NCBI RefSeq assembly: GCF_001895045.1
Contig: NZ_BDAM01000003.1
Span: forward strand, 186,001 to 250,000
Direction: 5' to 3'
DNA: 64,000 bases
Origin: Rhodococcus coprophilus NBRC 100603
GTDB lineage: Bacteria; Actinomycetota; Actinomycetes; Mycobacteriales; Mycobacteriaceae
Shown: positions 53,758-64,000 of the stretch, piece by piece
Layout: each line of letters begins with the position of its first letter
Position numbering within the stretch: the first letter of the stretch is position 1
Translations under genes and position numbers: made by a program
The notes under the pieces: model-generated
The model's input: the letters and a program-made list of their open reading frames with translations, nothing else
Databases searched by the model: none
What the model was told of the DNA's origin: nothing

Positions 53758-54839
53758 AGGATCACCACCGAGCGGAGAACCTCGCCGCGGTGCATCGTCT
53801 CGAATGCCTTCTCGACATCGTCGATGCCGATGCGCTCGGTGACGAACTTCTCGAGCGGCAGTCGTCCCTGCTGGTACAGGTCGACGTACGTCGGGAAGTC
53901 GCGTTCGGGCAGGCAGTCTCCGTACCACGAACTCTTGAGCGATCCGCCGTGCGAGAAGAAGTCGACGAGCGGCATCTCGAGGGTCATGTCCGGCGTCGGA
54001 ACACCGACCAGGACGACGGTACCGGCCAGGTCACGGGCGTAGAACGCCTGCTTGTAGGTCTCCGGGCGGCCGACCGCGTCGATCACCACGTCCGCACCGA
54101 AACCGCCGGTGATCTCCTTGATGGCCTCGACCGCGTCGGTCGACCTGGAGTTGATCGTGTGGGTCGCGCCCAGGTCGGTTGCCCACTCGAGCTTCTTGTC
54201 GTCCCGGTCGACGGCGATGATCTTGCTCGCACCGGCGAGTCGGGCGCCCATGATCGCTGCGTCGCCGACGCCGCCGCATCCGATGACCGCGACGGACTGG
54301 CCGCGAGTGACGCCGCCGGTGTTGACCGCTGCGCCCAGGCCGGCCATGACGCCGCACCCGAGCAGACCCACCACGGCGGGATCCGCGCTCGGATCGACCT
54401 TGGTGCACTGACCCGCATGCACGAGGGTCTTGTCGGCAAACGCGCCGATACCCAGCGCCGGTGTCAGCTCGGTGCCGTCTTCGAGCGTCATCTTCTGCGT
54501 CGCGTTGAACGTCGAGAAGCAGTACTGGGGCTGACCACGCTTACACGCCCGGCACTGCCCGCACACGGCGCGCCAGTTGAGGACGACGAAATCGCCCACC
54601 GCAACCGAGTCGACGCCCTCGCCCACCGACTCGACGACGCCTGCGGCCTCGTGCCCGAGCAGGAAGGGGAACTCGTCGTTGATCCCGCCCTCACGGTAGT
54701 GCAGGTCGGTGTGGCACACACCGCACGCGGCGATCGCGACGACGACCTCGCCCGGTCCGGGATCGGGTATCACGATGGGCACGACCTCGACGGGTGCCCC
54801 CTTCGCGCGTGCAACGACTCCGCGAACTGTCTGTGACAT
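53754..54839 (-). CDS. mscR: Mycothiol-dependent formaldehyde dehydrogenase / nitrosothiol reductase
   Basis: 361 aa zinc alcohol dehydrogenase of class III. It oxidises S-hydroxymethyl-mycothiol with NAD. Catalytic zinc ligands are in ACGVCHTDL and LLGHEAAG; structural zinc in [15 protein letters not shown]; the NAD fold is [22 protein letters not shown] 54839 has an AAGGAG site. First gene of a two-gene operon. Confidence 0.92.
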
Positions 54840-55397: not shown

Positions 55398-57179
55398 ATG
55401 GCCAACGAAAAGCCGTCGTCACGCAGCAAGGTCTTCGCCGGCGTGCTAGCGCCGATCGCGCTCGGAGTCGCGGCGGCAGTCGCCATCGCGTGGCCGCAAC
55501 CGACCCCGCCCACCGTCGCCGACCCCGCTCTGGCGGGTTTGGCCTCGACAGCCGACTGTCACGACATGGTCAGCATCGGCGTGGGCGGCCGCGGCGATAC
55601 CCCTCGCGACCAGACGAAGATGCTCGTCGACGAGAAGGGCAACAAGTTGCCCGCGGCGCAGCAGGGCGCGTACCGGAGCCACTGGGTGGATCCGGTGATC
55701 AACGCGCCGCTGGAGGACCACGAGGGCGACAACGGGTACGCGGCGATCTACATCGAGTATCCCGCCGACCTGTCGAGCTACGAAGACGCCGTGAACACGG
55801 GCGCCGACAACACCATCCAGGTCATGAAGGCCATCCAGGCCTCGTGCCCCGACACCCAGTTCGCCATCGTCGGCTTCAGCGAAGGCGCGGATGTCGCCCG
55901 GCGTGCGGCGATGCAGATCGGCAACCAGACACAGAACCCGGACGGCACCTGGCCCAATGGCGATCCCAGCGCGGTCACGGGAGTCGTCATTCTGTCCGAC
56001 GCCGGCCGCGGCGTCGACGGAGAATTCTTCCCGGGCGCCAAGGATCCCAGCAATCCCGACGGATTCGACCGCCCCTACGACCCGAGCGCGGGCACAGCCC
56101 CCGGCGGCGGAGCGTTGCCCGGAACAGGCGGTGAGTTCGGCAAGCTGAACGGCAAGGTTGCCTCCTTCTGCTCCGAGGGCGACTTCGCGTGCTCGACGCC
56201 CGACAACATCTCCCTGATCGAACTGCTCGTCAACCTCGGACGGCAGGTGAACGGTGATGCCATCGAGCGTGAAGGGCTGACCCCCGCAACGGGCGCCGAT
56301 CTCGCACAGGTCCTCGGCCGGGTCGCGCTCCTCGCCCTCGCCGATGTTTCCGCCGACGAAGACTGGATGCGTTCGGACGAGACGTTCCTCGACGTGCTGA
56401 TCAAGGTGTCCGAGCCCGGCTACGTGCCCGAGGCCAAGACGACGCCGGTCGCAGCCGACGGGTCCGAGCCCATTCCGGCGGATCGCCTGGCCAACCTCGC
56501 ATACCTCCCGGAGAAGCTCCTCAAGGAAGTCATCGGATTGGTCCGGACCAACCAGAACACCCTCGCGGTGATCATGAGCGACCCCTACGACCAGACCTTC
56601 GGCTACAACCGGGAGACCGACGACCACTACGGTCACCACTTCGACTACTGGGACGACGACATCGACGGTAAGGGCACCAGCACCGTCGACTATGCGGCCG
56701 CGTGGCTCACTCACCTCGCCGAGCAGGCCAAGCAGGGCAAGCCGGTGTCCAGCGACGCCGAAGCCAAGGCGGCGCGGATGATGGCCGCCGCCGAAGCTGC
56801 GGAAGCCTCCGAGACCACGGAGACCTCCGAGACGACACCCGCGTCGCCCAGCGATCAGGCGAACCCGCAGACGTCGCCGGCTCAGGACGGCGCCGTACCG
56901 GCACCCCCCGCTCCGGCACCGGGTGCTCCCGTACCGGGTGCTCCCGTACCGGGCGTCGCCCCCGCTCCGACCGCCCCTTCCGGCGCGCCTTCCGTGGCAC
57001 CGGTTCCGGGCACCGTCCCCGCCCCCGAAGGTGCCGGCATGCCGGTGCCGCCCACCGGCGAACCGAGCACCGGTCAGCCGACCACCGGTGAGCCGACAAC
57101 GGAGCAGCCGACGGGCACTACGGCTCCGGCCACCACGACGGCGCCTACGACGACGCCGTCGCCGCAGCCTGTTCCCTGA
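55398..57179 (+). CDS. Cutinase-family esterase with Pro/Thr-rich tail
   Basis: 593 aa. N-terminal membrane segment or signal (about 11-32), then an alpha/beta-hydrolase with nucleophile Ser161 in VGFSEGADVA (the family has GYSQG). Likely acid Asp and His lie in the DPYDQTFGYN and HHFDYWDD region. The last 120 residues are Ala/Pro/Thr-rich (repeats GAPVPGAPVPG and TGEPTTEQP) and probably pass the cell wall. It is likely surface-bound, acting on esters or envelope lipids. The 3' end overlaps the convergent LuxR gene by 35 bp. Confidence 0.85.
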   Translation: MANEKPSSRSKVFAGVLAPIALGVAAAVAIAWPQPTPPTVADPALAGLASTADCHDMVSIGVGGRGDTPRDQTKMLVDEKGNKLPAAQQGAYRSHWVDPVINAPLEDHEGDNGYAAIYIEYPADLSSYEDAVNTGADNTIQVMKAIQASCPDTQFAIVGFSEGADVARRAAMQIGNQTQNPDGTWPNGDPSAVTGVVILSDAGRGVDGEFFPGAKDPSNPDGFDRPYDPSAGTAPGGGALPGTGGEFGKLNGKVASFCSEGDFACSTPDNISLIELLVNLGRQVNGDAIEREGLTPATGADLAQVLGRVALLALADVSADEDWMRSDETFLDVLIKVSEPGYVPEAKTTPVAADGSEPIPADRLANLAYLPEKLLKEVIGLVRTNQNTLAVIMSDPYDQTFGYNRETDDHYGHHFDYWDDDIDGKGTSTVDYAAAWLTHLAEQAKQGKPVSSDAEAKAARMMAAAEAAEASETTETSETTPASPSDQANPQTSPAQDGAVPAPPAPAPGAPVPGAPVPGVAPAPTAPSGAPSVAPVPGTVPAPEGAGMPVPPTGEPSTGQPTTGEPTTEQPTGTTAPATTTAPTTTPSPQPVP

Positions 57180-58536
57180 TCGTCCCTGAACCGAAGAACT
57201 CGGCGTCAGCTCTCGCGGCTTTGACCCCGGCCTCGGAACCGAGAGCCGCGGCCTCGCCACGGGAGCTGACGCCGAGTTTTTTGAGCACGTTCGCCACGTG
57301 GAATTTCACCGTGGCCTCGGTGACCCCGAGACTCTCCGCGATGGCGCGGTTGCGTCGGCCCGCCACCAGATGCCCGAGGACTTCCACTTCCCGCGAGCCG
57401 AGGGCGCTCAGTGCGTCGAGCGCCGGGCCCTCTGCCGTGGGCGACGGAAGATCGAGTGGCAGTCGGACAGACACGCGGCAACCCCATCCCGCGGTGGCTT
57501 CGGTGTCGATGACGCCCCCGAGCGCGTCGACCCGATCTCGCAAGCGTCGTTCGAGTTCGAGGGCATCGAGATCGCCGGGTCCGTCGTCGCGGATGTCGAC
57601 GAGCAGGCTCGTACCGTCGCAGTTCCATGCCACTCGGATACGGTGGACGCCGGCTTGAGCCGACAGCGCCAGCACTGCGCCCCGGGCCAGGGCGCGGGCA
57701 GCGTGTGCGATCTCCCCCGGCAGTCCTCGCCCGTCGACGGGAGGCGCCACCATGTCCAGCTTCAAGTCGTGGTGACGGACCAGTCCGCGCAACTCGCCGT
57801 GCATCCGCGCGAAGGCGGTGGTCACCGCCTCTTCCGCGAGTTCGCGATGAAGGTCGACCGACGACCTCAGGCCGATGAGAGCTGCGGTCGCCGTCTCCCG
57901 AGCCGTCGTCCTGGCCCGGCTGTCGTCGAGGTCGCGGGAGCGGAGCGTCGCGAGAAGGGTCTCGAGCGTGGCGGCGTGAGCCTCGGTGAGTTCGGCGACG
58001 GTCCGCGCACGTTCGGCGGACGCCGCGCGCGACTCTGCAAGGTAGGCCGGACTGGCGCTCTGCACCTGCAACTGGATGGCGGTAGCGACGAGGCCGAACA
58101 GAGCGCTCGTCAGTGCGAGCGGCGTCGAGGCGGTCCAGGTTCCCTGCCGGGGAAGGAGGACCAGCAGCGTGTCGGTGCGGTCCAGCACCGCCCACGCGTC
58201 GCGATCACGACCCGCGAGCCGAACGCTTCCACGTTTCGTCCGGTCCACGGAGAGATCGCACCGGATGCGGTCGAGTTCGGCGATGGTGACCCGGTCGACG
58301 ATCGCCGGGTCTCCCGCGACCTTGCGGGGCCTGCCGGTGCATTCGCGGGTGAAGACCACCAGAGCGGTGTGCGGAACGAAGTCCGAGAGCAGTGTCGAGA
58401 ACCGCACACCGATTTCCGGCAACGGACCCACCAGCACGTCGCGCAGGGCGGCCAGAAGCTCTTCGGTCCCGTACTCGGTCGTGCCGTCTGCTGCTGTTCG
58501 GGTCACCGGCTTGCCGGTCACTGTCGTGCTGTTCAC
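57145..58536 (-). CDS. LuxR-type regulator with histidine-kinase-like ATPase region
   Basis: 463 aa. A GAF-like N-terminal part is followed by coiled segments (about 170-225) and a region resembling a HATPase of the NarX group: DIRDDGPGD and GWGCRVSVRLPL. The C-terminal 60 residues before the tail are a LuxR HTH (LGSREVEVLGHLVAGRRNR, then VTEATVKFHVANVLKKLGV). No phospho-acceptor histidine box or receiver domain is evident. Kinase-like sensing and DNA binding would thus be in one chain. It overlaps the cutinase gene tail to tail. Confidence 0.82.
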   Translation of the reverse strand: MNSTTVTGKPVTRTAADGTTEYGTEELLAALRDVLVGPLPEIGVRFSTLLSDFVPHTALVVFTRECTGRPRKVAGDPAIVDRVTIAELDRIRCDLSVDRTKRGSVRLAGRDRDAWAVLDRTDTLLVLLPRQGTWTASTPLALTSALFGLVATAIQLQVQSASPAYLAESRAASAERARTVAELTEAHAATLETLLATLRSRDLDDSRARTTARETATAALIGLRSSVDLHRELAEEAVTTAFARMHGELRGLVRHHDLKLDMVAPPVDGRGLPGEIAHAARALARGAVLALSAQAGVHRIRVAWNCDGTSLLVDIRDDGPGDLDALELERRLRDRVDALGGVIDTEATAGWGCRVSVRLPLDLPSPTAEGPALDALSALGSREVEVLGHLVAGRRNRAIAESLGVTEATVKFHVANVLKKLGVSSRGEAAALGSEAGVKAARADAEFFGSGTIREQAAATASS

Positions 58537-58932
58537 TACGGAAAGATATCGCGGGACCTATGCGACTTCTGCCGCCCACCGGCGAGGGCTCACAGGCCCG
58601 GAAACGATTGTCCACGTGCAGTTAAGGGGACTCGAACCCCTTGACCCCCACACTGCCACTGTGAAGACGAGAAGGTCACCATGTCACGGGGGTGCTATCG
58701 CGTCAGCTCTACCAGCAATTACTCGTACCAGCGCGTCTACCTTGTATCACCTCGTGGCATACCGAGTCAGGACAGAGCTAGGACATCTGGTCAAGTCCCA
58801 AGTAGTGGTGTAACTCGGCGGCACAGGCGCGGGCTGGATGCCGGCCGGGAGCGTAGATACCTGAATTCGACACCGCGTGTATGTGGTTGACATTCAGGCT
58901 GTCTCGTACTCGCGGGCGTTCTGGTCGTAGGT
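58537..58932. other. Intergenic stretch with tRNA-derived attachment site
   Basis: 396 bp with no convincing gene. It contains the tRNA-Ala 3' fragment (58621-58663) and one copy of an inner direct repeat (58790-58806). The region from here to 61570 has more A/T in third positions than its surroundings. Confidence 0.5.
58621..58663 (-). repeat. Duplicated 3' half of tRNA-Ala (att site)
   Basis: Matches 61621-61662 of the intact tRNA-Ala gene: an 18-bp identical block (58623-58640), one extra T, then 17 identical bases and a near match to TGTG. It covers the anticodon-to-acceptor part (T-arm and GGC). It lacks the 5' half, so it is not a gene. This is the classic product of integration into a tRNA 3' end. 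Confidence 0.82.
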
Positions 58933-59163
58933 GTGCTCGGACTGGGGCCCACTTACGGCAAGGGATCGGCGTTGACGAAACGACAGTGGGCGGTCAGGGG
59001 TCTCGGGGACTACCCCGAGATTGATTCGGAGGAACTCCAGACGTGGGTGAATACCAGTAAGCGGGCCCTGCAGTCGGCCGGGGTCGTCGAGGCGTTCGGT
59101 GTCGCCGCCGGTGAGCGGGTCACGATCCGCATGAACCCGGGAGAGACCTGGCTCGTCCGCTGA
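58933..59163 (+). CDS. Small unknown protein on the island
   Basis: 76 aa or shorter. The reliable part begins at TTG or the codons after it (TKRQWAVRGLGDYPEIDSEE) and continues to GETWLVR. Codon use looks coding. I do not recognise the family. It could be the C-terminal remainder of a larger gene cut by rearrangement. It lies 70 bp before the abrB-type gene. Confidence 0.45.
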   Translation: MLGLGPTYGKGSALTKRQWAVRGLGDYPEIDSEELQTWVNTSKRALQSAGVVEAFGVAAGERVTIRMNPGETWLVR

Positions 59164-59193
59164 CCCCCGCTCAGTACAGTCGAACCAGCGGGT

Positions 59194-59205
59194 CCAACTA
59201 GTTGG
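59194..59205. promoter_or_regulatory. Palindromic operator of the AbrB-ABC operon
   Basis: Perfect 12-bp palindrome CCAACTAGTTGG, followed by TTCAACTGG, a partial second site. A TATAAC -10 box is at 59220-59225 and the ATG is seven bases later, so the site covers the -35 region of a leaderless promoter. Likely autoregulatory site for the AbrB-type protein. Confidence 0.7.
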
Positions 59206-59232
59206 AATAGTTCAACTGGTATAACTTTCGAC

Positions 59233-59505
59233 ATGAGCCCTCGACGCGAACCAAGCCGTTCACAGTCAGCCCCTTCGGGCAAATTCGCCGCGACGGTCGT
59301 TATGGGAGAGAAGGGGCAGATAGTCATTCCCAAGGGAGCGCGCGACCTCCTCGGCATCGGCCCAGGTGACACGTTGCTGCTTCTTGCGGACATCGACCGA
59401 GGAATCGCCGTCGTGCGGCCGGAGCTCTTCGAGGGCTTTCTCGAGCAAGCCCTGAACGCCACTCTTCAACCGCCCACCGCGGACACCGCGGAGGAAACGT
59501 CATGA
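59233..59505 (+). CDS. AbrB/MazE/SpoVT-type transcription regulator
   Basis: 90 aa. The swapped-hairpin DNA-binding domain spans about residues 20-65: MGEKGQIVIPKGARDLLGIG, then DTLLLLAD and IAVVRPE. The short C-terminal part may dimerise. ATG 59233 has no Shine-Dalgarno and follows a TATAAC box. Its stop overlaps the ATPase ATG (59502-59505). It most likely controls the exporter operon it begins. Confidence 0.85.
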   Translation: MSPRREPSRSQSAPSGKFAATVVMGEKGQIVIPKGARDLLGIGPGDTLLLLADIDRGIAVVRPELFEGFLEQALNATLQPPTADTAEETS

Positions 59506-60413
59506 GCGTCGTGTCTTGTCGTGATGTCACTCGGAGTTTCGGTGATCTCGCCGCCGTGGACGGGGTGAGCCTGAGTGTCGAGCAGAACGAGGTCGTCGGC
59601 ATCATCGGCCCCAATGGGGCTGGAAAAACGACGCTCCTCAACTGCCTGGAGGGCCTGGACGTACCCACGTCCGGTTCGATCGACGTGCTCGGCTTTTGCC
59701 CGGTGAAGGATGCCCACGTGCTCGCGCAGCGGGTAGGTGTCCAGCTGCAGCACGCGGCTCTGCTGCCCAGATTGAAGGTGGGCGAGGCGCTGGAACTGTT
59801 CTCGTCGTTCTATGCCCGGCCGATGCCCTGGCGTCCGCTTCTGGAGACTCTCGGGATCGCAGCCAAGGAGAAATCCTATGTGGCCAAGCTATCCGGTGGA
59901 GAGCGACAGCGCGTGTTCATAGCGCTTGCCCTTATTCACGACCCGGAGCTGCTCTTCCTCGACGAGCTCACCACCTCACTCGACCCGCAGGCGCGCCTGG
60001 CGATGTGGGAGGTGGTCCGCGACATTCGCCGACGCGGCAAGACGGTCGTCCTCACGACGCACTACATGGAGGAGGCCGAGGCGCTCTGCGACCGGGTCGC
60101 GATCATAAACCAGGGCAGACTCGTCGCTCTGGACACCGTCCGGGGGCTCATTTCGGCTCACGGAGGAGATTCCACGTTGCGACTGACTCTCGACCGCCCC
60201 ACACCGCCCACCCTGACCTCCGTGGAAGGGGTCTCCTCGGTGAACTCCGACAACGCCGTGACAATCATCCGTGGACGCGGGGCATTTGCCCAGAATGTGC
60301 TTTCCCACCTGACGCAGGCCGGGGCCGTGGTGACCGACATGACCATGAGCTCACCCGGGATGGAAGAGGTATTTCTCAACCTGACCGGACGCACGATGCG
60401 AGAGGCGCCCTGA
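59502..60413 (+). CDS. ABC exporter ATPase (DrrA/CcmA type)
   Basis: 303 aa. Walker A IGPNGAGKTTLLNCL, signature LSGGERQRVFIALAL, Walker B LLFLDELTTSLDP and switch VLTTHYMEEAEALCD. Such ATPases pair with ABC-2 permeases for drug, lipid or peptide export. The C-terminal 90 residues are the usual regulatory extension. The stop overlaps the permease ATG (TGATG). Confidence 0.92.
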   Translation: MSVVSCRDVTRSFGDLAAVDGVSLSVEQNEVVGIIGPNGAGKTTLLNCLEGLDVPTSGSIDVLGFCPVKDAHVLAQRVGVQLQHAALLPRLKVGEALELFSSFYARPMPWRPLLETLGIAAKEKSYVAKLSGGERQRVFIALALIHDPELLFLDELTTSLDPQARLAMWEVVRDIRRRGKTVVLTTHYMEEAEALCDRVAIINQGRLVALDTVRGLISAHGGDSTLRLTLDRPTPPTLTSVEGVSSVNSDNAVTIIRGRGAFAQNVLSHLTQAGAVVTDMTMSSPGMEEVFLNLTGRTMREAP

Positions 60414-61162
60414 TGCGGACATATCGGACACTAATCCTCACCCTTGCCCGCTCCACACTGCGCGAGCCGGTGGGATTCTTCTTCACACTGATCTTCGCGC
60501 CCATGCTGATGGTGATTCTGGGGCTGATCTTTGGCAACGATCCAAGCCCAGAGTTCGGCGGGCGAGGCTTTGTGGCCGCCACGCTCCCTGCCTACGCCTC
60601 ACTGGTGGTGGCGATCATGGGCGTTCTCACGCTGCCAGTGAGCCAACTGCAGCTCCGCGAGAGCGGCGCCCTGCTGAGACTGCGGGCCACACCGCTTCGC
60701 CCGCAGTCCTACGTCGCCGCCGACCTCACCGTCAACTTCCTGATCGGTCTGACAGGGATCGCCTTTGCCCTGATGGTGGGGATTCTCGGCTTCGGGGTGC
60801 GACCGGAGGGCAACCTGGTGTCAGTGCTCGCGGCCGCGGCGCTCGGACTGGTCGCGTTCCTGGCGCTCGGTTACACGCTGGCGGCAATCTACCCATCTGC
60901 GGCCGCAGCGACGGGCATCGGGAACGGGCTGATGATCCTGCTGATGATGACGTCGGGGGCGTTCGTGCCGCTGGCCGTACTCCCGGAAGGCGTACAGCGT
61001 GTGACGGAATTCTCGCCGATCCGTCACCTGGTTGACCTGATGCAAGGCCTGTGGAACGGCGATCCATGGTCCAACTACGGGCTTGCCACGGCCGTACTCG
61101 TCGGCATGATCGTCATCTTCGGCACCATGGGCGCCCGGTTGTTCAAGTGGAACGCAGCATGA
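60413..61162 (+). CDS. ABC-2 type permease
   Basis: 249 aa, six predicted membrane segments (first about 20-42, last about 225-245). It has the ABC-2 pattern, with a polar loop after the first helix and the QLRESGALLRLRATPL coupling segment. Export substrate unknown. It is the last gene of the AbrB-ATPase-permease operon. Confidence 0.9.
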   Translation: MRTYRTLILTLARSTLREPVGFFFTLIFAPMLMVILGLIFGNDPSPEFGGRGFVAATLPAYASLVVAIMGVLTLPVSQLQLRESGALLRLRATPLRPQSYVAADLTVNFLIGLTGIAFALMVGILGFGVRPEGNLVSVLAAAALGLVAFLALGYTLAAIYPSAAAATGIGNGLMILLMMTSGAFVPLAVLPEGVQRVTEFSPIRHLVDLMQGLWNGDPWSNYGLATAVLVGMIVIFGTMGARLFKWNAA

Positions 61163-61257
61163 ACCGCTCGGTGAATCGAACCAACATGGACCGGGCGCCA
61201 TTCCGGGAGAACATCGGCTAACGGGTCAAACCCCAGTGGTCGAGTCCCGAGTAGTCA

Positions 61258-61530
61258 TGCAAACTCTCGCCTCGTGCGGTCACTGGACTGGAACGATGCG
61301 TTCGGGTAGGCCTATTCGCCGAACAGAGGAAGGCGGCAAGGCTGCCGCCGATCACCCTACGGATTCTGCGGCACTCGTCAGTCTCCCGGATCCTCGCGGC
61401 GGGCGTGCCCGCCGACGTGGTGGCGGCCTGGCACGGGCACAGCGAAAGGACGACTCAGGCGGTCTACGGCCGGGTTTCTGACGACCGGCTCGCGGCCGCG
61501 TCGTCCGCGATATCCGGAGCAATAGGACAG
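61258..61530 (+). pseudogene. Tyrosine recombinase (integrase) C-terminal remnant
   Basis: The reading frame through 61309-61510 gives KAARLPPITLRILRHSSVSR, then ILAAGVPADVV, then AAWHGHSERTTQAVYGRV. This matches the integrase active-site block: Arg-His, a His, and the nucleophile Tyr. The N-terminal 250 residues are absent and the frame closes upstream at 61252-61254. It reads on past the tRNA without a natural end. It lies beside the tRNA it presumably used. Confidence 0.75.
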
Positions 61531-61574
61531 AGTCATGACATTCCGACCCCCGACCGCACCTGTCCAGGACAGCG

Positions 61575-61610
61575 AGAAGCCCCCTCCGATGCAGATCGGA
61601 GGGGGCTTCT
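61575..61610 (-). terminator. Terminator of tRNA-Ala
   Basis: A 16-bp perfect stem (61575-61590 with 61595-61610, AGAAGCCCCCTCCGAT/ATCGGAGGGGGCTTCT), loop GCAG, 6 bp beyond the tRNA 3' end on the minus strand. Confidence 0.85.
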
Positions 61611-61616
61611 GTTCTG

Positions 61617-61689
61617 TGGAGCTAAGGGGACTCGAACCCCTGACCCCCACACTGCCAGTGTGGTGCGCTACCAGCTGCGCCATAGCCCC
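61617..61689 (-). tRNA. tRNA-Ala, anticodon GGC
   Basis: 73 nt, complete cloverleaf on the minus strand. The acceptor stem GGGGCTA/TAGCTCC includes the G3:U70 pair that marks tRNA-Ala; discriminator A. The anticodon stem is CCACA/TGTGG with loop CTGGCAG; the T-arm is AGGGG-TTCGAGT-CCCCT. CCA is not encoded. It is followed by a strong terminator. It serves as the attachment gene of the island to its low-coordinate side. Confidence 0.95.
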
Positions 61690-63110: not shown

Positions 63111-64000
63111 CTACCGATCCTGTGCTCGGCTGCCAGTGTCGTTGCTCACGCCGCCGTCGTTGCTCACGCCGCCGTCGTTGCTCACGCCGCCGTCGTTGCT
63201 CACGCCGCCGTCGTTGCTCACGCCGCCGTCGCCGCTCACCGCGCCGTCGTTCCTCACGTCGTCGGCGGCGGGCGCCGCGTCGCGCGAGCGTCCGGCGAAG
63301 AACCACGGAATCGCGGCAATCAGCATGATCATGCCGGTGGCAGCGAATGCGGCCGAGAACGACAGGTGCTGGGCGAGCAAACCTGCCACGATCGGCCCGA
63401 TCACGGTGCCGATGTCAGCTGTCATCTGGAAGGTCGCGAGTACGGGGCCGCCGCGGGCCTTGCTGCCTACCACATCGGCCACCGCGGCTTGCTGCGACGG
63501 GTTCGACAATCCCGACCCCATACCGGCCACGAGCGAGGTGACGAGAAACAGCGCCACACTCTCGGTCAGGCCCATCACGATCGTCGAGACACCACACACC
63601 AGGAGCCCGGCGAGCACGAAGGGCCGTCGTCCGTAGCGGTCGGACCAGCGCCCGGATCGGATCAGGACGAGAGCGTTGCCCACGGCGAAGGCGGTCAGTG
63701 CCACGCCGGCGAACGCCTCACCCTGCTCGAGGGCTTCCACCACGAAGAGCGGCACCATGGCGACGCGGACACCGAAGACCACCCAGCCGTTCGCGAAGTT
63801 CGATCCGAGCGCGGCGCGGTAGACCGGGGAGCCGAGCGCTTCGCGCAGCCCCATCACCCGCAGTTCTTCACCTTTGGCAGGCTGCGCGAGATGCGACGAG
63901 CGCAACTGCACACCTACGACGGCAGCGGCGATCAGCAGGGCCACCGCGTAGATGAGGAACGGGGCGCGGAGCCCGAGTCCGGTGAGCGCACCGCCCACGA
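63111..64000 (-). CDS. MFS transporter, C-terminal part (5' end outside window)
   Basis: The last 296 residues or so of a major facilitator protein. Helices and the loop motif GRWSDRYGRRPFV (MFS motif A of the second half) are clear, as is NPSQQAAVADVVG. The C-terminus carries five or more copies of the hexapeptide GGVSND. The substrate is unknown, perhaps drugs or sugars. It ends 10 bp before the MauE-like gene on the same strand. The start lies beyond the right edge. Confidence 0.88.
   Translation of the reverse strand, partial: VGGALTGLGLRAPFLIYAVALLIAAAVVGVQLRSSHLAQPAKGEELRVMGLREALGSPVYRAALGSNFANGWVVFGVRVAMVPLFVVEALEQGEAFAGVALTAFAVGNALVLIRSGRWSDRYGRRPFVLAGLLVCGVSTIVMGLTESVALFLVTSLVAGMGSGLSNPSQQAAVADVVGSKARGGPVLATFQMTADIGTVIGPIVAGLLAQHLSFSAAFAATGMIMLIAAIPWFFAGRSRDAAPAADDVRNDGAVSGDGGVSNDGGVSNDGGVSNDGGVSNDGGVSNDTGSRAQDR
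63138..63263. repeat. 18-bp tandem repeat in the MFS gene end
   Basis: Unit GTCGTTGCTCACGCCGCC. Five perfect copies at 63138-63227, then two degenerate ones to 63263. On the coding strand each unit encodes six residues (GGVSND), so copy-number change keeps the frame. Likely to vary between strains. Confidence 0.9.

Follow-up and report, generated by a model that had tools for sequence, protein, structure and literature searches.

Probable scar of a small tyrosine-integrase element at a tRNA-Ala(GGC) gene of Rhodococcus coprophilus, with an intact exporter operon inside it

We analysed a stretch of 64,000 nucleotides from Rhodococcus coprophilus NBRC 100603 (contig NZ_BDAM01000003.1, positions 186,001 to 250,000; hereafter the window, with positions counted from its first base), and in particular the 3 kb that separate its tRNA-Ala(GGC) gene from a partial copy of that gene. 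This interval is very probably (about 0.9, as judged from sequence comparison) the scar of a small integrative element of the tyrosine-integrase type that had used the 3’ part of the tRNA gene. The original prediction, made from the letters of the window, had described a worn integrative element here, and this description held: both ends, the duplicated core and the C-terminus of the integrase match those of relatives at the same site. Support for the scar is good, as its far end is recognisable without any tRNA letters. From left to right, the interval contains the tRNA copy, 125 bp of element end, an IS256 end, a frame of 76 amino acids, the abrB, ATPase and permease genes, a degenerate second IS256-type end, the integrase stub, a hairpin and the tRNA. 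Other genomes and loci are identified below by handles beginning with G or L where they need to be told apart.

ARAGORN reports only one tRNA in the window, the intact tRNA-Ala(GGC) at 61616-61689 on the minus strand, and an identical 74-nt gene is present in all 17 other genomes of the genus. The partial copy of its 3’ part, taken as the attR core (right attachment-site core), occupies 58616-58663 in the same orientation, and the spacing from copy to intact gene is exactly 3 kb. Of 48 aligned columns, 44 are identical (91.7%), the differences being three substitutions and one inserted base, and the two sequences share identical blocks of 18 nt (TAAGGGGACTCGAACCCC) and 17 nt (TGACCCCCACACTGCCA). 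The intact gene, the 3’ copy 3 kb away and both blocks had been claimed beforehand, and ARAGORN and the alignment agree with that claim; only the start of the copy had to be moved, from 58621 to five bases earlier, 58616. The pair has a local alignment score of 74. Twenty shuffles of bases 1-58600 did not exceed 28, and other real sequence of the window reached 21 (plus strand of 1-58600) and 27 (minus strand of 1-61600). A chance repeat is ruled out by these scores. Similarity between copy and gene ends at tRNA nucleotide 47, and the copy is thus a fragment; a complete second tRNA, which the original prediction had named as fatal to it, is not present.

The sequence next to the copy was compared with the ends of related elements. 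An nhmmer profile of the far ends of eight other elements, from which tRNA letters had been excluded, matches positions 58697-58785 (E=3.5e-8) and gave no match in the reversed window. Node 34 of the profile falls on 58697, and ungapped extension puts node 1 on 58664, the first base past the copy; the far (attR-side) element end is accordingly placed at 58664-58788. Pairwise matches of the far end were obtained with L192 (E=0.002) and L178 (E=0.33), at the same core distances as in the window (45 and 37 bp). The far end contains the motif AGGACAgAGcTAGGACA, which is common to the relatives and is probably an integrase arm site, and a weak second match of the profile at the integrase end (61508-61546, E=0.043) fits a repeated arm site. 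On the other side of the scar, a right-end profile of ten related elements matches 61311-61613 (E=3e-61), and locus L060 is 78% identical to the window DNA over 361 bp that span the integrase end, the hairpin and the tRNA. Among 20 sequences of the genus, the left end was found at the window locus only, and the right end in the window and in G010 only. The extent of the copy is also that seen in related elements (43-47 nt), and the copies of G341, G351, G173 and G111 end at nucleotide 47 as well. The locus therefore shows the direct duplication of the tRNA 3’ part, the adjoining integrase of the tRNA-Ala family (as a stub only) and the non-tRNA end sequence shared with relatives, at the left and at the right, that characterise an integrative element at a tRNA site. 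Because both window ends match those of relatives and the far end is in register with the copy, we identify the duplicated pair as an attL/attR pair and not an eroded tandem tRNA.

The integrase is represented by a frame at 61312-61530 on the plus strand, which had been called an integrase stub beforehand and whose identity was confirmed by C-terminal matches to relatives. Its 73 residues correspond to the last 73 of about 395, approximately 320 N-terminal residues being lost. Six relatives, each about 380-410 residues long, share 66-79% identity with it at their C-termini. The Pfam model Phage_integrase scores the stub at E=0.0012, which is under the cut-off. The stop codon of the relatives is replaced in the stub, and the frame reads on. 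The integrase is of phage type (PHROG 1, E=3e-49), and the rest of the R. coprophilus genome contains no integrase of the stub’s family at E<=1e-40. Between the end of the integrase and the tRNA lies a strong hairpin, an inverted repeat at 61575-61610 that also occurs in related elements, L060 among them; the fold of 61560-61616 has an energy of -39.1 kcal/mol (z=-7.0). This hairpin is likely a terminator, and a simple terminator scan did not list it. Excision of the remnant by its own means is unlikely because the stub is without those N-terminal residues, its stop codon is lost, the attR core carries four differences, and any replication and head genes are gone too.

Mycobacterium, Gordonia, Nocardia and Rhodococcus triatomae have full-length relatives of the integrase beside this same tRNA gene. 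Of the 401 genomes of the bacterial family, 20 contain a member of the integrase family at E<=1e-40, and ARAGORN places tRNA-Ala(GGC) in 14 of these 20 integrase loci. A scan of named genomes by sequence pattern, limited to relatives in which two short conserved peptides are present, yielded 29 loci: 19 from Mycobacterium/Mycolicibacterium, two from Mycolicibacillus, four from Gordonia, two from less closely named metagenome bins, and one each from Nocardia camponoti and Rhodococcus triatomae. The whole-genome and named-locus sets partly overlap (G108/L184, G341/L183, G187/L180 and G391/L176). By ARAGORN, 22 of the 29 named loci have tRNA-Ala(GGC) no more than 400 bp from the end of the integrase. 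BLAST detects tRNA-Ala-like sequence up to that distance in 23 loci and, with the limit at 3 kb, in 26; the exceptions are L174, where it is 4.1 kb away, L187 and L193. At L188, a tRNA-Ala-like sequence (1349-1422, 70/74 identical) that ARAGORN calls tRNA-Cys adjoins an 85%-identical integrase; this diverged tRNA-Ala may reflect decay of the tRNA or faulty sequence in a metagenome bin.

The duplication seen in the window recurs at these loci. An intact tRNA-Ala together with a far copy of 43-47 nt was present in seven of the 11 related whole-genome loci examined, the copies being 47/47 in G341 and G351, 47 nt with one difference in G173 and G111, 46 nt in G180 and 43 nt in G090 and G108. In nine of the 29 named loci, whose flanks were covered up to 10 kb, a tRNA copy 21-47 nt long lies at the far end. 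On these comparisons, the duplication is a property of the integrase family. Distances between the copies range in the relatives from 1.7-1.8 kb (L179 and L192) up to 29.4 kb (G173), which puts the window, at 3.0 kb, near the worn end. In Gordonia shandongensis (L192, 8609-10417; 1.8 kb) and Mycolicibacterium canariasense (L179, 9281-10980; 1.7 kb), a truncated integrase lies between tRNA-Ala(GGC) and a partial copy, and both are further scars. A second scar in the genus Rhodococcus was observed in G010 (L047, 9688-9791), where about a dozen integrase C-terminal residues (AVYGRVSDDRL) and the hairpin stand beside tRNA-Ala (E=4.5e-5) and no tRNA fragment is present.

Most of the remaining scar is taken up by an operon at 59233-61162, and a regulated exporter within the 3 kb had in fact been part of the original prediction. 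The first gene (59233-59505, plus strand) encodes an AbrB/MazE-type DNA-binding protein of 90 residues (TIGR01439, E=2.2e-12; PF04014, E=5.4e-8). It overlaps by ATGA with the gene for a DrrA-like ABC transporter ATPase of 303 residues (59502-60413, plus strand; PF00005, E=8e-29), which matches TIGR01188 at E=1e-68 yet remains under that model’s cut-off. The third gene encodes an ABC-2 type permease of 249 residues (60413-61162, plus strand; PF12698, E=2e-21; PF01061, E=4e-20). The operon is intact, with overlapping start and stop codons, and its G+C content of 63.8% is about two standard deviations low against same-size stretches of 1-58600 (mean 67.7%, standard deviation 2.0, minimum 61.7). 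Domain content and overlapping gene order are those of DrrAB-type ABC-2 exporters with an AbrB-type regulator, from which the window proteins differ in falling under the TIGR01188 and TIGR00025 cut-offs. The operon most likely encodes an exporter of a drug or toxin that would be autoregulated. A perfect 14-bp palindrome, TCCAACTAGTTGGA, at 59193-59206, 26 bp before the abrB start, is a candidate operator; the window contains 13 palindromes of at least 14 bp, and TCCAACTAGTTGGA is weak on its own. No sigma-70-type consensus promoter was found upstream of abrB. As regards a role in defence, PADLOC matched the ATPase only, to ATPase-type models, and gave no match for the AbrB protein or the permease.

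The nearest homologues of the three genes are found together in G113, at 55, 58 and 51% protein identity, and the differences between G113 and the window operon are concentrated at third codon positions. Beyond G113, the permease is at most 34% identical among the matches listed from 397 genomes of the order, and a permease more than 34% identical was found in none of the 17 other genomes of the genus. Twelve plasmid records hold a match to the permease, the best at 35.1%. The operon thus appears foreign to the genus as far as searched, and it is intact and apparently not a core part of the element family. The original prediction had called it cargo of the element; an intact exporter does stand in the remnant, and its status as original cargo is unproven, the exporter being present in no other element compared. 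It may be a later passenger, since it is missing from those elements and lies between two IS256-type end remnants, the second of them tentative.

These remnants bear on how the exporter arrived. A 29-nt end of an IS256-family insertion sequence (IS) lies at 58789-58817 on the plus strand, right at the inner edge of the left element end, and is 28/29 identical to multi-copy IS ends in G025 (matrix score 41.2; nhmmer E=9e-7). A transposase beside one of the G025 copies identifies the family as IS256; none stands beside the window end. A degenerate second end at 61238-61262 (plus strand, hence in the same orientation as the first) scores 24.1 and is the second best in the window with the 25-nt matrix, the next best scoring 10.2, and its similarity to the first end was reached in 1 of 300 shuffles. 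It is nearly as probable as not that flanking IS256-family copies brought the exporter in later, as a now decayed composite transposon or by recombination between IS copies. The position of the first end, the rank and orientation of the second, and the absence of the exporter from other elements, with its nearest homologues in G113 only 51-58% identical, all speak for such a history. Against it, a longer IS profile (11 sequences, of which one, L145, is cut out of register) gives only E=0.51 at the 61238 end and E=0.0013 at an unrelated place, 54670-54712; no transposase remains, and no 8-bp target duplication was found around the IS ends. The two are IS256 end sequences only, with no transposase gene between inverted ends. 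A later arrival would concern the cargo alone and is compatible with the interval being the scar of a tRNA-site element.

The former nature of that element was assessed from less damaged relatives. In L167 (M. barrassiae), 10.6 kb between the copies encode a major capsid protein (PF05065, E=1e-36), a portal protein (PF05133), the large terminase subunit, scaffold-like, HNH, AAA_25 primase-like and excisionase-like proteins, and the integrase. The 9.0 kb of G351 encode a fused prohead protease/capsid protein and an AAA_25 protein, and the 16.7 kb of G341 a large terminase subunit and an AAA_25 protein. AAA_25-like proteins were also seen in L178 and, below cut-off, in L177, and L184 (R. triatomae) encodes a replication-initiation-like protein. 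Neither tail nor conjugation genes, including relaxase and transfer translocase, were recognised among the 20 proteins of relatives that were profile-scanned (a selection of their proteins, one of them an integrase), and relaxase and translocase were equally missing among the window proteins scanned. The relatives look like tail-less phage satellites by gene content, since genes for heads, packaging or replication were found in those examined and none for conjugation was recognised. The window itself has no capsid gene with an integrase and no primase- or helicase-type replication protein; it is a remnant related to capsid-forming satellites and not a member of that class.

Two other origins were weighed against a satellite-like ancestor. 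It is unlikely that the scar derives from an ordinary tailed prophage that decayed, a possibility to which the phage-type integrase lends some weight. When the integrase was compared with 50,697 phage records, all 102 matches were below 60% identity, with the 15 rows listed at 25-28%, and a related integrase was not confirmed in IMG/VR (90 pattern matches, none confirmed); in addition, those related elements in which both ends are present and the integrase is largely complete are about 6-29 kb long, and the scanned proteins included none recognisable as a tail protein. Less probable still is descent from a conjugative or mobilizable integrative element. Actinobacterial conjugative elements, too, usually enter tRNA genes by means of a tyrosine integrase, and the 29.4-kb element of G173 appears, from its frames, to contain much non-phage cargo. 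However, inspection by eye of the frames of seven relatives revealed no recognisable conjugation gene, and profile searches detected genes for heads, packaging or phage-type replication in G351, L167 and G341. The original prediction had expected larger relatives with a full integrase and transfer genes; the full integrase was found, and no transfer gene was recognised in what was scanned of the relatives.

In the genus, the neighbourhood of the tRNA was compared in 17 other genomes. The host gene for a LuxR-type regulator (57145-58536, minus strand; 463 residues, PF00196) lies outside the element in the window and is present over most of its length in 16 of the 17, G012 having only its last 138 bp. 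Two tandem tRNA-Ala genes stand at the locus in 11 of these genomes, three in one and a single gene in five, of which two are on contigs that do not reach luxR. The tRNA fragment was found in none of the 17, in the stretches examined, and a permease close to that of the window was likewise lacking. The original prediction had foreseen empty sites with one tRNA-Ala directly by the luxR gene. The only genus genome with luxR next to tRNA-Ala is G007, where they are about 140 bp apart and the flank is weakly similar; elsewhere tRNA-Ala genes are mostly in tandem, and in many genus members other genes (e.g., an AMP-ligase gene) lie in between.

Because tandem tRNA-Ala genes are common in the genus, with spacers of 72-108 bp, and the window genome has a single gene at the locus, an eroded second copy of a tandem pair, split by an ordinary 3-kb insertion, became a serious rival. 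It is now very improbable, and was rejected on the far-end profile match: an eroded tandem copy would be expected to keep traces of its 5’ half and of the native spacer, whereas similarity stops at nucleotide 47 as it does in the copies of four related elements, and the 125 bp beyond match far ends in register.

Several observations count against the interpretation as an element scar, or complicate it. The host genus yielded no intact element of the kind, and the one candidate empty site, in G007, is not proven by the comparisons made, because its flank similarity is weak and other genus members match equally well or better: the left flank scores 69 against G007, where the best of 200 shuffles reached 66, and over the last 60 flank bases G007 scores 16, compared with 18 for G015, 17 for G013 and 16 for G016. 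Among the 11 whole-genome loci, G044, G187 and G391 are without a far copy (the contigs of G044 and G391 end within 7.4 kb), and G025 has only a 26-nt tRNA piece and no intact tRNA-Ala. Capsid genes were found in just two relatives (G351 and L167) and terminase genes in two (L167 and G341), and L177, L178 and L184 gave just replication-type or unrelated matches among the proteins scanned. The only close matches to the exporter in the pooled loci, which comprise those of the related elements, are those of G113. A frame of 76 residues inside the scar (58933-59163, plus strand) resembles the N-terminus of an AMP-binding enzyme weakly (Pfam AMP-binding, E=0.053, below cut-off; tblastn E 0.01-0.7) and is possibly a decayed gene piece. 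Several genus members have an AMP-ligase gene in the luxR-tRNA interval; the one product scanned, that of G008, is a true AMP-binding enzyme. If the 76-residue frame is a piece of this native gene, the history of the locus would be more complex.

Side observations at and near the locus concern other changes. The genus genome most similar at the locus is G012, at 88% from the tRNA to a DsbA-like gene, and between its luxR remnant and tRNA-Ala stands an 839-residue frame with a UvrA DNA-binding domain (PF17755; L049, 1262-4269, minus strand). Gene turnover appears to have occurred repeatedly in the luxR-tRNA interval. In G015 (L052, 5221-5586), three identical tandem tRNA-Ala(GGC) genes with equal 72-bp spacers occur where most relatives have two. 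Within the window, the 3’ end of an MFS-like transporter gene (63135-63235) contains a short tandem repeat, CGTTGCTCACGCCGC-like by eye, that encodes the protein repeat GGVSND.

For the element scar itself, we propose the following history. A tyrosine integrase would have recombined the attachment site of the element (attP) with the 3’ part of tRNA-Ala(GGC), so that the tRNA was rebuilt with letters supplied by the element (attL) and the old 3’ part was pushed to the far end (attR). The 3’ 47 nt of the intact tRNA (61616-61662) would then be the attL copy of the core. The original prediction had held that integration left the tRNA intact; an intact tRNA is present, and its 3’ part would be a reconstruction. 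The ancestor was probably a phage-satellite-like element of the kind called phage-inducible chromosomal islands (PICIs), because an integrase and a replication protein are found in its closest full-length relatives, together in some of them with head and packaging genes, and no tail or conjugation gene was recognised. Loss of the first approximately 320 integrase residues, of any replication and head genes and of the stop codon of the stub would have followed, along with the four differences in the attR core. The IS256-type remnants suggest, tentatively, that insertion sequences aided this decay or brought the exporter in.

Known systems resemble the family in part. Candidate PICIs of Mycobacterium are described with an integrase and a major capsid gene, some also with helicase, terminase and scaffold genes, and the tyrosine-integrase islands shown in that account sit at tRNA genes (PMC10654092). 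L167 and G351 fit this description, whereas the remnant in the window keeps no capsid or replication gene. Like the capsid-forming PICIs presented in PMC11389934, L167 and G351 have their own head genes, a primase-like protein, an integrase and no recognised tail genes; in contrast, none of those genes is left in the window. In a survey of prophages from actinobacteria, many of the small elements, below 15 kb, are supposed to be satellites (PMC10023795). Mycobacteriophage Ms6, a complete phage, is reported to integrate at tRNA-Ala genes, its core of 26 bases lying around the T-loop (PMC1762012). The element family shares with Ms6 the use of tRNA-Ala, a likeness by attachment site, and differs in that its shared block of 43-47 nt takes in the T-loop and the anticodon stem-loop, within which the crossover cannot be placed. 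A literature search found no publication that joins at least four of the topics tRNA-Ala, AbrB, ABC permease, genomic island and Rhodococcus.

Scars at tRNA genes are common, and the one described here is well documented yet ordinary. It is useful mainly since less damaged relatives show its former nature. A single tRNA gene serves related elements in several genera, with a further scar in the host genus (G010) and two short ones elsewhere (L192 and L179), and paired end profiles, read in register with the tRNA core, could reveal further elements of this integrase family that are heavily decayed. A broader possibility, which we regard as doubtful at present, is that the integrase stub comes from a little-described lineage of small, tail-less satellites with head genes, specialised on tRNA-Ala(GGC) in Mycobacterium, Gordonia, Nocardia and Rhodococcus, one of which delivered the autoregulated exporter here, directly or by way of an IS passenger; the host would then have kept the exporter while its vehicle decayed, as a case of domestication.

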